Shown in pieces: positions 45,676 to 50,290 of a DNA stretch of 64,000 bases. The notes beneath the pieces were generated by a model. The model saw nothing but the letters and a program-made list of their open reading frames with translations, had not been told where the DNA came from and did not search any database. The position numbers were made by a program, and so were the translations under genes. The stretch's first letter is position 1; every line of letters begins with the position of its first letter. The stretch is from Sphaerisporangium sp. TRM90804. GTDB lineage: Bacteria; Actinomycetota; Actinomycetes; Streptosporangiales; Streptosporangiaceae. The stretch is from NCBI RefSeq assembly GCF_029846175.1, contig NZ_JARWAC010000007.1:1-64000 (forward strand), given 5' to 3'.

Positions 45676-46686
45676 ATGAGAGATCGGCCCGACGACCTGC
45701 GGGAGCCCGAACTCCGCCGCGCCCTGCACGCGTGGCTGATCGACGCCGTCGAGGTGGCGCACGCCCCGGTGGGGTTCGGCGACCACCACTGGACCGCCAC
45801 CGGCGCCGACGGCCGGCGCTGGTTCCTCACCGCCGCCGACCTCACCGGCAAGCCCCGGCACGGAGCCGACGCCGACGCCGCCTGCCAGGGCCTGCGCGGT
45901 GCCATGGACACCGCCGCCGCCCTGCGGCACGGCGGCCTGGACTTCGTCATCGCTCCCCTGACCACCCCCCGGGGCGAGACCGTACGCAGGGTCGGCGCCC
46001 GCTACGCCCTCAGCGTCTTCCCCTTCGTCGACGGCGCCCCCGGAGAGTTCGGCCGGAAACCCTCGCCGGGCGAACGCGGCCGGATGCTGGATCTCCTGGC
46101 CCGGCTCCACCGCACCGCGCCCCCGGAGTCCACCCCCGCCCACCGGCCCGAACTCCCCACGCGCCCCCACCTCGACCACATGCTGACCGCCACCGGCCGG
46201 CCCTGGGAGGGCGGCCCCTACGCCGAGCCCGCCCGCGCCCTGGTGGCCGAGCACGCCGCCGCGCTGCGCCTGCGGCTGCGCCGGTTCGACGACCACATCC
46301 GGCATCTCGAAGCCGGCGGATCCCGTCCCGTCGTCACCCACGGCGAACCCCACCCCGGCAACGTGGTCCGATCCGCCGGCCGCCCCCTGCTGGTCGACTG
46401 GGACACCGTCGCCCTGGCACCTCCCGAGCGCGACCTGTGGCTGGTGGCCGAGGACGCCGCCGACCTGGCCCGCTACGCCGACGCCACCGGCCACGCCCCC
46501 GACCCTGTCGTCCTCGCGCTCTACCGCCTGCGCTGGGCCCTGGACGACGTGGCGGCCTTCGTCGACTACTTCCGCTCCCCGCACGCCCACACCCCCGACG
46601 CCGAGCTCTCCTGGGAGAGCCTCGCCGCCACCCTGCGATGGCTGGCCGCGGACCACGCCGGTGACGAGACGGCGGCGCCGGCGTGA
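45676..46686 (+). CDS. aminoglycoside-phosphotransferase-fold kinase
   Basis: 336 residues. The APH fold is given by the catalytic loop VVTHGEPHPGNVV and the metal-binding LLVDWDTVALAPPERDLW. The closest described group by these motifs is spectinomycin/macrolide-type phosphotransferases (HGEPHPGN rather than HGDLHPGN), though most environmental members have unknown substrates. It probably starts as a leaderless mRNA. A very strong hairpin follows 96 nt after the stop. Confidence 0.85.
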   Translation: MRDRPDDLREPELRRALHAWLIDAVEVAHAPVGFGDHHWTATGADGRRWFLTAADLTGKPRHGADADAACQGLRGAMDTAAALRHGGLDFVIAPLTTPRGETVRRVGARYALSVFPFVDGAPGEFGRKPSPGERGRMLDLLARLHRTAPPESTPAHRPELPTRPHLDHMLTATGRPWEGGPYAEPARALVAEHAAALRLRLRRFDDHIRHLEAGGSRPVVTHGEPHPGNVVRSAGRPLLVDWDTVALAPPERDLWLVAEDAADLARYADATGHAPDPVVLALYRLRWALDDVAAFVDYFRSPHAHTPDAELSWESLAATLRWLAADHAGDETAAPA

Positions 46687-46855: not shown

Positions 46856-47908
46856 TCAGCGGATCGCGAGCGGGCGGTAGGGCAGGAAGCCGGTCGCGGG
46901 GGACAGGCCGTGCGAGACGCGCAGGCGGTCGGTTCCGTAGCCGCGACGCTGCTGGTAGGCCCAGTACGAGGTGCGCTTCGCGTCGGCCCAGCGGTCGAAG
47001 ATGACCACCTGCCGCCCGGAGGCCGGGCCGGTGGCCCTGATGACCAGGTCACCGGCCCGCAGCGCCGCGACCGTGATGGGCCTGGTGTGACGGGCCGAGA
47101 CCAGGCCGCGCGAGTCGGGGCCCGGGCCGCCGAGCCGCAGCGCCATCGCGGCGTAACCCGAGCCGTCGGTCCGGTAACCGCCGTGCCTGCCGGTCTGGCT
47201 GTACGGCACGCGCTTGGCGCCGCCCGGGTTCCACGTGCGGGCGCGGGCGATCACCTCGGCCGGCGTCAGGCCGGCGACCGGCCACAGCGCGTCGACGATC
47301 AGCCGGCCGTCGCCGGCCTGCGGCTGGTACCGCTCGGGGTACTTCGAGACCTGCACCCGCTGGCAGACCTCCCCCACCGGCGCCGACCGCCACGAGCCGT
47401 CCGGGTACCTGCGCTCCATCTTGTCGAGGAAGGCGCCGGTCGCCCAGGCCACGTCCAGCCGCCGGGCGGCGGTGCCCCAGCTCGCGCGCTGCTGGAACAC
47501 GCCCAGGCTGTCGTGGTCGAGCTCCTTGTCGATGTTCCGCACGCCGGTCTCGACGATGGCCGTGGTCACGGCGACCACCGCGGCCTCCCGTGGCATCGCG
47601 CGGGCGCGGACGGCCGCGACCACCGCCCGGGCGCAGCTGACGCGGTAGCCGTCCAGGTAGCCGCGCAGCTTCATCGTGAGCCGGGTGTCGAGCCGGGCCG
47701 CCAGGCCGGCGTCGCCCGCGGTCACCCCGCCGGCCGCGCAGGGCGCGGTCGAGACGGCGGCCCGCGCGGGCGAGCCGGGAGCGGTCACCACCATCGCGGC
47801 CGCGAGCAGGAGCACCGCCCCGGTCGCGGCGGGCCGGGCCGCCGCGTCCCGGAGTGGCCTGCCGGGCCGGGGCGCCGCGGCGGCGTCCGGGCGTGGTCGG
47901 GTGCGCAC
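46856..47908 (-). CDS. secreted lysozyme-like protein with an inactive NlpC/P60-like domain
   Basis: 350 residues. A signal/anchor helix lies at ~30-50. Residues ~85-210 resemble the lysozyme-like (lytic transglycosylase) fold seen in actinobacterial wall enzymes: AIVETGVRNIDKELDHDSLGVFQQRASWGT, with Glu120 as the possible acid. Residues 214-350 are the NlpC/P60-like domain shared with the two neighbouring genes, but the Cys position is Gly249 (RTDGSGY) and the His position is Gln300 (GRQVVIFDRW), so no thiol hydrolysis is expected from it. GTG 47908 overlaps the stop of the upstream gene (TAGTG), so the genes are coupled. A wall-binding role for the dead domain and cutting by the first domain is my inference. 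Confidence 0.72.
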   Translation of the reverse strand: MRTRPRPDAAAAPRPGRPLRDAAARPAATGAVLLLAAAMVVTAPGSPARAAVSTAPCAAGGVTAGDAGLAARLDTRLTMKLRGYLDGYRVSCARAVVAAVRARAMPREAAVVAVTTAIVETGVRNIDKELDHDSLGVFQQRASWGTAARRLDVAWATGAFLDKMERRYPDGSWRSAPVGEVCQRVQVSKYPERYQPQAGDGRLIVDALWPVAGLTPAEVIARARTWNPGGAKRVPYSQTGRHGGYRTDGSGYAAMALRLGGPGPDSRGLVSARHTRPITVAALRAGDLVIRATGPASGRQVVIFDRWADAKRTSYWAYQQRRGYGTDRLRVSHGLSPATGFLPYRPLAIR

Positions 47909-48945
47909 TAGCGGATCCTGCTGGGACGGTAGGCACGGAACTGGGTGCCCGTGGTGAGCCCGTGCTTGACCACGCGGTAGTCGGTGCCGTAGCCGGCGCG
48001 CTGCTGGTAGGCCCAGTAGGAGGTGCGGGCGGTGTCGGCCCACTTGTCGAAGATGACGACGGCGCGCGCGGTGTTGCCGCCCACCGGGTCGATCACCAGG
48101 TCGCCCTGGAGCAGCTCGGCCATCTTGATCGGACGGCCGTGCGCGCTGGACGCCAGGGCGGTGGTGAGCGGCCCGGGCTTGGCCAGGCCCAGCGTCATGG
48201 AGACGTAACCCGACCCGTCGGCCCGGTAGCCGCCGTACTTCTTCGCCTGGCTGTAGGGGACCCGCTTCGCGGTGCCCGGGTTCCACGTCTTGGCCCGGGC
48301 GATCACCTGGGCGCGGGTGACCGTCGGCGGCGGCACCGGCGCGTCCTCACGGATGTTCAGCGCCCGGTACGCCTTGTACTCGCTGCCCGACGACAGGCCG
48401 TAGGTGCGCGTCCGGTAGTCGGTGCCGTAGCCGCCGCGCTGCTCGTAGGCGTAGTAGGAGCTGTGCGCGGAGTTGGCCCACTTGTCGAAGATGACGACAT
48501 GGCGGGTGGTGTTGGAGCCGATCGCGTCGATCACCAGGTCGCCCCTGCGCAGCTCCGACATCTGGATGCGCCGGGTGTAGGTGCTCTTGGCGAGCCCGAC
48601 GGTGATCGGGCCCGGCTTGCCCAGGCCCAGGGCCATGGAGACGTAGCCGGAGCAGTCGGTGCGGTAGCCGCCGTGCGTCTTGGTCTGGCTGTAGGGGATC
48701 CGCTTGGCGGTCCCTGGGTTCCACGTCTTCGCCTTCGCGATCATCTGCGAGCGGGTGATCGGCGCGGCCGCCGCGGCCTGCGGAACCGCCGAGTGACCGG
48801 CGGTCGCCACCGCCGCCGCCGGGGGGCCGGCGTCGGGGGACGCCGCGTGGGCGGACACCGCGGGCACGAGGCCGCCCACGCAGGTGACCACGGTGACGAG
48901 CGCGAGGTGTCCCGCCGTGATCCTGATGCTTCGGTCCGAGGGCAT
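47908..48945 (-). CDS. secreted protein with one intact and one inactive NlpC/P60-like domain
   Basis: 345 residues. Signal peptide residues 1-~35 (ITAGHLALVTVVTCVGGLVP). Domain 1 (~62-200) keeps Cys98 (RTDCSGYVSMAL) and His149 (TTRHVVIFDKW), the thiol-peptidase pair, in the order DCSGY, RRGDLVI, HVVIF of NlpC/P60-like enzymes. Domain 2 (~208-345) has Gly244 (RADGSGY) and Ala295 (TARAVVIFDKW) in the same places. This makes a tandem of active and dead copies of about 137 residues each. It probably cuts peptide cross-bridges in peptidoglycan or a related amide. ATG 48945 follows AAGGAGA by 6 nt. It is followed directly by the lysozyme-like gene and is divergent from the membrane regulator. Confidence 0.78.
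   Translation of the reverse strand: MPSDRSIRITAGHLALVTVVTCVGGLVPAVSAHAASPDAGPPAAAVATAGHSAVPQAAAAAPITRSQMIAKAKTWNPGTAKRIPYSQTKTHGGYRTDCSGYVSMALGLGKPGPITVGLAKSTYTRRIQMSELRRGDLVIDAIGSNTTRHVVIFDKWANSAHSSYYAYEQRGGYGTDYRTRTYGLSSGSEYKAYRALNIREDAPVPPPTVTRAQVIARAKTWNPGTAKRVPYSQAKKYGGYRADGSGYVSMTLGLAKPGPLTTALASSAHGRPIKMAELLQGDLVIDPVGGNTARAVVIFDKWADTARTSYWAYQQRAGYGTDYRVVKHGLTTGTQFRAYRPSRIR
47980..48129 (-). repeat. 150-bp exact inverted repeat, left arm
   Basis: This stretch in the second domain of the tandem NlpC/P60-like gene is the exact reverse complement of 50054-50203 in the divergent membrane-regulator gene; I compared all 150 positions. The flanks differ, so the identity ends sharply. Confidence 0.92.
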
Positions 48946-49040
48946 GTGCTCTCCTTGTCCTGCCGTTGATCGTTCGGTTTGGCCGGCCGGGCACACACGC
49001 TGACAGGAAATTTCCGAAACTCATCGTGCTATTGGTGAAG

Positions 49041-49059
49041 TTGGGACAATAGCTCCCAA
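49041..49059. promoter_or_regulatory. TTGGGA-N7-TCCCAA operator candidate
   Basis: An inverted repeat lies in the 133-bp gap between the divergent tandem-domain gene and the HTH membrane-protein gene. A further GTTGGGAC half-site lies near 49100 inside the start of the HTH gene. This is a fitting place for the HTH protein to regulate both genes. Confidence 0.5.
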
Positions 49060-49078
49060 GGTGACGACATGACCTGCG

Positions 49079-50290
49079 ATGACTCAGACCGCTGAGACAA
49101 GGTTGGGACGAACCACCGTGGCGAACGGAACCGAGAACCCGGGCCGGAGCCGGCGGCTGCGCCCGCTGTCCGACGATCTGCCCGAGCCGACCCGGGTGCT
49201 CCTGCGGGAGCTGCGCGCCCTCAAGGAGCGGGCCGGCTTCGACCTGCGGGCGTTGGAGCAGGCGACCCACGCGAGCCGCTCGTCCTGGGGGCGATGGCTC
49301 GCCGGCGAGACGTGGATCCCGCTGGACGCGGTGGAAGGGCTCGCCCGGCTGTGCCGGGCGGACACGCACCGGTTCCGCGAACTGTGGGAGGCGGCGGAGC
49401 ACGCGCGCCGCTCGGCGGGGTTCGCCGAGAGCGCCGAGCCCTCGCCGGACCCCGAGGGCGAGGAGATCCCGCGGCGTCCCGCCGAGGGCACCGGCCCCCT
49501 TCCGCGAGCCGGCGTCACCCCTCCCGGGGGAGCCGCCGAAAGCGGTGGAGCCGGGCATCCGCCGGCCCTCCCGGCCACGGGCGCTGCTCACCCCGCCGCC
49601 CCGGAGCCGGGCGACACGGCGCCGCGCGGGCCGGCCGAGCACGGGCCCGCCGAGCACGGACCGGCCGAGCGCCTGCGCCGGCGGTTCGCCGTCGGCGCGA
49701 CAGTGGGCCTGGTCGTGGGCATGGCGTGCGGCGCCGTGCTCACCGGCTCGGCCATGGTCGGCGGCGCGAGCGACGACGCGGGCGGCGACGCGCGCCCGTC
49801 CGCCGGCGCGAGCGCGGCGGGCCGTGGCACGCAGACGGCCGCGCCGGCGCCGGCGCCGGTCACCCCGCGCGCGGCGGTGATCGCCCGGGCCGGCACCTGG
49901 CGGCCGGCCACCGCGCGGCGCGTGCCCTACAGCCAGCTCAAGACGCGCGGCGGCTACCGGACCGACGGCTCGGGCTACGCGTCCATGGCGCTCGGGCTCC
50001 CCCGGCCTGGCCCGAACACCATCAACCTGGCCTCGGCCGCCTACAGCCGTCGCATCAAGATGGCCGAGCTGCTCCAGGGCGACCTGGTGATCGACCCGGT
50101 GGGCGGCAACACCGCGCGCGCCGTCGTCATCTTCGACAAGTGGGCCGACACCGCCCGCACCTCCTACTGGGCCTACCAGCAGCGCGCCGGCTACGGCACC
50201 GACCACCGCGTCGTCAGGCACGGGCTGGCCCCGGGTGACCAGTTCCGCGCCTACCGCCCGGTCAACATCCGCGACGCCACCGGCGGCTGA
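49079..50290 (+). CDS. membrane-spanning HTH protein with inactive NlpC/P60-like outer domain
   Basis: 403 residues. Residues ~38-105 are an XRE-type helix-turn-helix of the actinobacterial kind (LLRELRALKERAGFDLRALEQATHASRSSWGRWLAG). A long Pro/Gly/Ala linker with GPAEH repeats leads to one membrane helix at ~203-226 (FAVGATVGLVVGMACGAVL) and then the NlpC/P60-like domain (262-400), outside the cell by the positive-inside rule. Gly297 (RTDGSGY) and Ala348 (TARAVVIF) replace Cys and His. The layout suggests a one-component sensor that reads the wall with a dead hydrolase domain and acts on DNA from the membrane. ATG 49079 has a poor ribosome site; GTG at codon 14 is an alternative. Divergent from the related secreted genes. 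Confidence 0.78.
   Translation: MTQTAETRLGRTTVANGTENPGRSRRLRPLSDDLPEPTRVLLRELRALKERAGFDLRALEQATHASRSSWGRWLAGETWIPLDAVEGLARLCRADTHRFRELWEAAEHARRSAGFAESAEPSPDPEGEEIPRRPAEGTGPLPRAGVTPPGGAAESGGAGHPPALPATGAAHPAAPEPGDTAPRGPAEHGPAEHGPAERLRRRFAVGATVGLVVGMACGAVLTGSAMVGGASDDAGGDARPSAGASAAGRGTQTAAPAPAPVTPRAAVIARAGTWRPATARRVPYSQLKTRGGYRTDGSGYASMALGLPRPGPNTINLASAAYSRRIKMAELLQGDLVIDPVGGNTARAVVIFDKWADTARTSYWAYQQRAGYGTDHRVVRHGLAPGDQFRAYRPVNIRDATGG
50054..50203 (+). repeat. 150-bp exact inverted repeat, right arm
   Basis: Exact reverse complement of 47980-48129. It encodes from IKMAELLQGDLVIDPVGG to AYQQRAGYGTD in the outer domain. The 1.9 kb between the arms holds the 5' parts of both genes, so recombination between arms would invert the segment and exchange the short 3' ends of the two genes. 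Confidence 0.92.

Follow-up and report, generated by a model that had tools for sequence, protein, structure and literature searches.

In our view, it is still little understood how bacteria monitor the condition of their cell wall. BlaR1/MecR1 use a sensor domain that is related to the enzymes or targets for which they respond. RodZ combines a helix-turn-helix (HTH) domain, one membrane helix and an outer domain. Further relevant systems are described in the literature. In SigI/RsgI of Clostridium thermocellum, the outer sensor of a transmembrane anti-sigma factor can be enzyme-like (GH10, S1C peptidase-like); the RsgI sensor detects substrate and controls cellulosome genes (PMC12203970). RipA and RipB are mycobacterial endopeptidases with a Cys-His-Glu triad (PMC6628586, PMC12067865). 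RipA cleaves between D-Glu and diaminopimelate, while RipD (Rv1566c) from Mycobacterium tuberculosis is a non-catalytic NlpC/P60 protein that binds peptidoglycan (PMC12067865). Here, we describe a locus of three genes (A, B and C) at positions 46856-50290 of a 64,000-nucleotide stretch from Sphaerisporangium sp. TRM90804 (contig NZ_JARWAC010000007.1, positions 1 to 64,000; referred to as the window). One NlpC/P60 domain occurs four times in this locus, once with its catalytic residues (live) and three times without them (dead). We consider it rather probable, judging from sequence, that gene C encodes a one-component transmembrane regulator, the sensor of which is a pseudo-enzyme and a twin of the regulated enzyme. 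The genes and domains are:

47908..48945, minus strand: gene B, 345 amino acids (aa), with a hydrophobic N-terminal stretch, a live NlpC/P60 domain and then a dead one
48349..48759, minus strand: live NlpC/P60 domain of gene B (Cys98, His149, Glu168)
47911..48321, minus strand: dead NlpC/P60 domain of gene B (Gly244, Ala295, Gln)
49118..50290, plus strand: gene C, with HTH_31, one membrane helix and a dead NlpC/P60 domain; the open reading frame (ORF) is open from an ATG at 49079
49178..49411, plus strand: helix-turn-helix region of gene C (HTH_31 in 26/26 sensors scanned)
49685..49741, plus strand: predicted single membrane helix of gene C (hydropathy mean 2.14 over 19 residues)
49862..50272, plus strand: dead NlpC/P60 domain of gene C, the putative outer sensor (Gly297, Ala348, Gln)
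46856..47908, minus strand: gene A, with a lysozyme-like N-terminal part and a dead NlpC/P60 domain
46859..47269, minus strand: dead NlpC/P60 domain of gene A (Gly249 and Gln300, numbered from the GTG at 47908, and Gln)

The ORFs and the residues at the Cys and His positions agree with the initial annotation when re-read from the sequence, and so do the three architectures that it described (live plus dead, lysozyme-like plus dead, HTH membrane protein plus dead). That all four are copies of the same domain is borne out by the domain alignment, in which identity to the live domain is 55-64% for the three dead ones. The genome (8.3 Mb in 86 contigs, a high-GC actinomycete) was searched for additional copies. 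Only these four matched strongly, which is far beyond chance; two further matches had E-values of 0.18 and 0.75. In gene C, the DNA-binding domain (HTH_31 match of 40 bits), the membrane helix and the sensor are in one chain, which is the architecture of a one-component transmembrane regulator. The helix is placed between the HTH and the dead domain and is preceded by Arg-rich residues. The GTG at 49118, which aligns with the ATG start of two Planobispora orthologues, is more likely to be the start codon than the ATG at 49079. Gene B matches the Pfam family NLPC_P60 with 28 bits (cut-off 23), and its product looks secreted, based on the hydrophobic N-terminus. The GTG start of gene A (47908) overlaps the TAG stop of gene B (TAGTG), so that genes B and A are probably in one operon. 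The N-terminal part of gene A has PHROGs matches to a tape measure protein (E 6.3e-15) and an endolysin (E 5.9e-7), and there was no PDB sequence match to it at E up to 10.

Live and dead domains were compared in an alignment of 118 hits, taken from the window and from 80 retrieved loci, and 113 of these hits were counted (76 live, 37 dead); the 61 live copies scoring at least 130 are called close live copies. Cys36 and His87 are present in 76/76 live copies and Glu106 in 75/76, with all 61 close live copies being in the Cys/His/Glu state. The dead copies have Gly36 and Gln106 throughout (37/37 each), while column 87 is never His (Glu 17, Met 7, Gln 7, Ala 6). Of the 137 columns, just two, 36 (Cys/Gly) and 106 (Glu/Gln), differ between the close live and the dead copies while being conserved to at least 85% within each group. 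The coordinated loss of Cys and His, proposed in the initial annotation, is thus seen in all 37 dead copies, but that description was incomplete, as Glu is replaced by Gln as well. This third exchange is two residues ahead of the Arg in YEQR/YQQR. Given its conservation and place, Glu106 would be the third residue of the triad. The live domain of gene B accordingly has the catalytic Cys, the His and the third polar residue, while the three dead domains of the window have Gly, Ala or Gln, and Gln at these positions. Asp35 and Ser37 are retained in 113/113 domains and Arg86 in 37/37 dead ones. In RipA of M. tuberculosis, the triad is Cys383-His432-Glu444. The two neighbours of this Cys, Asp382 and Ser384, and the residue preceding the His, Gln431, are among the contacts to the muropeptide, and Asp382 makes contact with gamma-D-Glu (PMC6628586). 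The conserved RipA-like contacts, taken together with the exchanges, suggest that the dead copies have wholly lost the presumed triad but have kept the presumed ligand contacts. Asp35 and Ser37 also point to peptidoglycan binding by the dead domains.

One distant copy with Cys and His (L136:2529-4196) has Gln at the Glu position, the sole such case among the 76. A further pair of Cys residues (SYC and C(R/H)P) is conserved in the dead domain of the sensors from Actinomadura/Spirillospora (L065, L075-L090); it does not occur in the other genera of the sensor alignment and possibly forms a disulphide.

With respect to the fold, the live copies match PF00877 in 17/17 cases. The dead domain was modelled with a papain-like NlpC/P60 fold. 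Thus, as in RipD, the catalytic residues are gone while the fold is, according to the model, retained. RipD keeps the Glu, however, whereas all three presumed triad residues are changed in gene C. In addition, the available text on RipD describes no HTH or membrane-regulator part, whereas the protein of gene C combines its dead domain with an HTH and a membrane helix and is encoded opposite a live copy. RipA and RipB have the same triad as the live copy; the excerpts mention a pro-domain ahead of their catalytic domain and no paired dead sensor. In PDB sequence searches, the matches were only weak, the live profile matching Spr (E 0.063). A match of a mixed profile to intimin (E 0.0064) was judged to be unrelated.

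The domain profile was matched in 17/150 genomes of the family, 52/297 of the order and 50/394 of the class, figures for which cut-offs differ, sets overlap and only some first-look candidates were scored. A pattern scan for dead copies, covering one genome per species and possibly leaving out records close to that of the window, returned 26 loci, all from Sphaerisporangium, Planobispora, Actinomadura, Spirillospora or Actinoallomurus. The HTH subtype of gene C was found at 64% identity or more in 8/150 genomes of the family, always as part of this sensor; six weaker matches (38-45% identity) are in open frames of 780-913 aa. Among 30 loci with any dead copy, 26 contain a live gene together with an HTH protein that carries a dead domain, and the two genes are divergent (head to head) in 26/26 cases, in Sphaerisporangium, Planobispora, Actinomadura/Spirillospora and Actinoallomurus. 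Of the remaining four, L067 is a contig end, L091 a truncated pair and L137 a fragment, and L093 is the locus from Actinoallomurus soli. The latter has the sole sensor with full flanks but without a live neighbour: no live copy was found within its 12.4-kb locus (L176), and the sensor matches as three pieces in two frames, with the HTH part frame-shifted. The frame shifts may be sequencing errors of the draft genome, or both halves of the pair may have been lost together. In the truncated pair from Actinomadura livida (L091/L181), the two domains abut head to head, and both N-terminal halves and the promoter are missing, which would be due either to misassembly or to a deletion between the inverted copies.

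The divergent regions of the 26 pairs share a repeated element. They were compared to 200 shuffles, with the relatedness of the genomes inflating the counts. The sensor strand has 63 copies of GGGACA (5.9 on average and 13 at most in the shuffles), and the other strand has six. TTGGGACA is present in 14 of the 26 regions (shuffles: mean 0.2, maximum 2) but in 0 of 35 control regions, each consisting of the 460 bases upstream of an unpaired live gene; GGGACA occurs in these controls 11 times on the matching strand and six times on the other. A frequent layout, of which there are many variants, is GGGACA-N2-GGGACR, then CTGACCTGC, then GGGACA-N2-GGGACA. The commonest spacings from one GGGACA to another are 63 and 8 bases. 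The window contains:

49041..49048, plus strand: TTGGGACA box in the divergent promoter, conserved in the regions of relatives
49071..49077, plus strand: GACCTGC element between the boxes
49094..49110, plus strand: GAGACA-AGG-TTGGGACG, the second box pair

An inverted repeat (TTGGGA-N7-TCCCAA, 49041-49059) was considered as an operator but is restricted to the window (1/26 regions). It was dropped, which leaves the direct GGGACA repeats as the conserved element. These repeats indirectly support DNA binding and target control by gene C. Additional sites were searched for in several ways. One pattern gave 24 matches in the own genome, compared to 43 for the reversed control, and the best-looking extra site (C77), located at the start of a coding region, was judged to be a chance match. 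A strict pattern had no match in six genomes, but it also missed the known promoters, so that this result says little. GGGACANNGGGACA gave 12 matches in a set of 12 genomes, one of these genomes being outside the carrier set. Four of the matches were in known promoters, and the control gave five.

We propose the following mechanism for gene C as a regulator with a pseudo-enzyme sensor. Its HTH domain would reside inside the cell and bind to the GGGACA repeats in the promoter that is common to genes C and B, and the single membrane helix would connect it to the outer sensor, an inactive NlpC/P60 domain. Having kept the presumed substrate-contact residues and lost the three presumed catalytic ones, the sensor would hold the peptidoglycan peptide of the live enzyme without cutting it. 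Binding of this ligand (or of the secreted enzyme) would alter DNA binding and adjust the transcription of the putative hydrolase operon (genes B and A) as well as that of gene C. By analogy, a peptidoglycan stem peptide is the most likely ligand, because RipA cuts between D-Glu and diaminopimelate and its dead relative RipD binds peptidoglycan. In Sphaerisporangium and Planobispora, the dead domain on genes B and A would probably anchor these enzymes to the wall. All this suggests that the cell wall is sensed, in this group of soil actinomycetes, with a dead copy of the enzyme under control.

The sensor of gene C is reminiscent of that of BlaR1/MecR1, which differ, however, by protease signalling, by acylation by the ligand and by belonging to another domain family. 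With RsgI, gene C would share the arrangement of a transmembrane regulator with an enzyme-like outer sensor (PMC12203970). RsgI acts via a sigma factor and proteolysis, whereas gene C has its own DNA-binding domain in the chain and senses with a dead copy of the enzyme encoded next to it. A membrane protein with a DNA-binding domain is a new location for a non-catalytic NlpC/P60 domain. Among the open-access matches listed, no paper reported an HTH membrane regulator that carries an NlpC/P60 pseudo-enzyme, most subscription journals being outside the scope of that search. Here, a live enzyme and a dead twin on a putative regulator form a matched pair, in which two catalytic positions differ in a fixed manner and the His is missing from the twin; this makes the ligand question directly testable.

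Several points weigh against this proposal. When the dead domain is used alone, 0/12 match a Pfam family at E up to 1. Its NlpC/P60 nature, which the initial annotation had read from the sequence, is thus deduced from the structure model and from the resemblance to the live copy. The model of the live copy, built from 17 sequences, is poor (pLDDT 51.8) and of no use for triad geometry. Column 87 is varied in the dead copies, so the pocket need not keep one ligand, and Gln at the Glu position also occurs in one distant live copy. The 26 loci are related, with 17 coming from one genus-level group, so that the counts are not independent. The pattern scans of the own genome and of relatives revealed no wider regulon beyond the locus, and the GGGACA repeats may be bound by another regulator.

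This last point would fit a different role of gene C, as a RodZ-like membrane scaffold, in which the HTH binds a protein, the dead domain ties the wall machinery to peptidoglycan and the repeats belong to another regulator. The layout is the same as that of RodZ, and a scaffold would be consistent with the failure to find a regulon outside the locus. We nevertheless regard this as unlikely, given the head-to-head pairing in 26/26 loci and the strong enrichment of GGGACA where the HTH partner is present but not before unpaired live genes. Similarly doubtful is control at the protein level, with the dead domains pairing with the live domain and restraining it, both within gene B and from the membrane via gene C. 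The fusion of a live and a dead copy in gene B and the live neighbour beside all 26 intact sensors would be expected in this case, but the live proteins at the Actinomadura and Actinoallomurus loci carry no dead copy, and the HTH and the promoter repeats would be left unexplained.

The selection on the dead domains was assessed by the ratio of nonsynonymous to synonymous substitution rates (dN/dS; Nei-Gojobori, with values being rough because of GC bias). For 22 sequences from Actinomadura, Actinoallomurus and relatives, including L067 (contig end, HTH not seen), the median is 0.395 over 229 pairs of sensor dead domains and 0.333 over 209 pairs of live partners; for the 208 pairs in common it is 0.378 (dead) versus 0.333 (live). 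Values in Sphaerisporangium/Planobispora are 0.23-0.47 for the HTH form, 0.19-0.51 and 0.24-0.60 for the dead copies of genes B and A, and 0.17-0.51 for the live copy. The dN/dS of the dead domains is not near 1, and the prediction of the initial annotation that the fold is kept under selection is supported by these values and by the modelled fold; overall, its interpretation is partly supported. That the dead copies are functionless, decaying duplicates is very improbable: it could be invoked for one sensor pair at 0.999 (the highest value, which also counts against our proposal), for the fragments in Sphaerisporangium perillae and Actinomadura livida and for the frame-shifted sensor in Actinoallomurus soli, but it was put aside in view of the median close to that of the live partners, the Gly and Gln fixed in 37/37 dead copies and the frames that are open across four groups of genera.

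A tree of the 113 domains was built without the three catalytic columns, and the Cys/Gly state was mapped on it, as suggested by the initial annotation. Two changes are required to account for the dead rows. Constraining these rows to a single clade gives a tree that scores 1.75 log units above the unconstrained one and is not rejected (p 0.517); because the domain sequence is short, many forks are unresolved. A single old origin of the dead form is therefore not rejected, and the three dead domains of the window probably do not represent three independent losses. In view of this test, the latter scenario was set aside, although the tree does not exclude it. The HTH form is present in all four groups of genera, while the double-domain and lysozyme forms turned up only in Sphaerisporangium/Planobispora loci. 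The simplest scenario would be one loss on the HTH protein, followed by spread to genes B and A.

The dead domains also show signs of sequence exchange. Genes B and C of the window share an identical tract:

47980..48129, minus strand: 150-base identical tract, gene B side (dead domain), a putative gene conversion tract
50054..50203, plus strand: 150-base identical tract, gene C side (dead domain), a putative gene conversion tract

Outside this tract, most 30-base steps of the two dead domains are 63-87% identical. In two Planobispora genomes (L063, L064), the DNA identity among the three dead domains of each genome is about 98%, while orthologues of the two species differ by 12-14%; the live copy is more distant, at 76-80%. 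The dead copies seem to evolve in concert, and the likeness in Planobispora would be explained by gene conversion across the inverted gene pair. It is tempting to speculate that the sensor is self-referring, sampling stem peptides via a triad-stripped twin of the hydrolase, with a shared ligand pocket that conversion keeps alike across regulator, hydrolase and lysozyme-like partner; we put this forward tentatively, with less confidence than the regulator function itself.

Among the unpaired live copies, five (L070, L072, L098, L101, L112) have an extra C-terminal stretch of 103-105 residues. Elsewhere in the window, ARAGORN calls a tRNA-Met at 45846-45937 (minus strand), inside an ORF (45676-46686) that is kinase-like by eye; this call is probably false.

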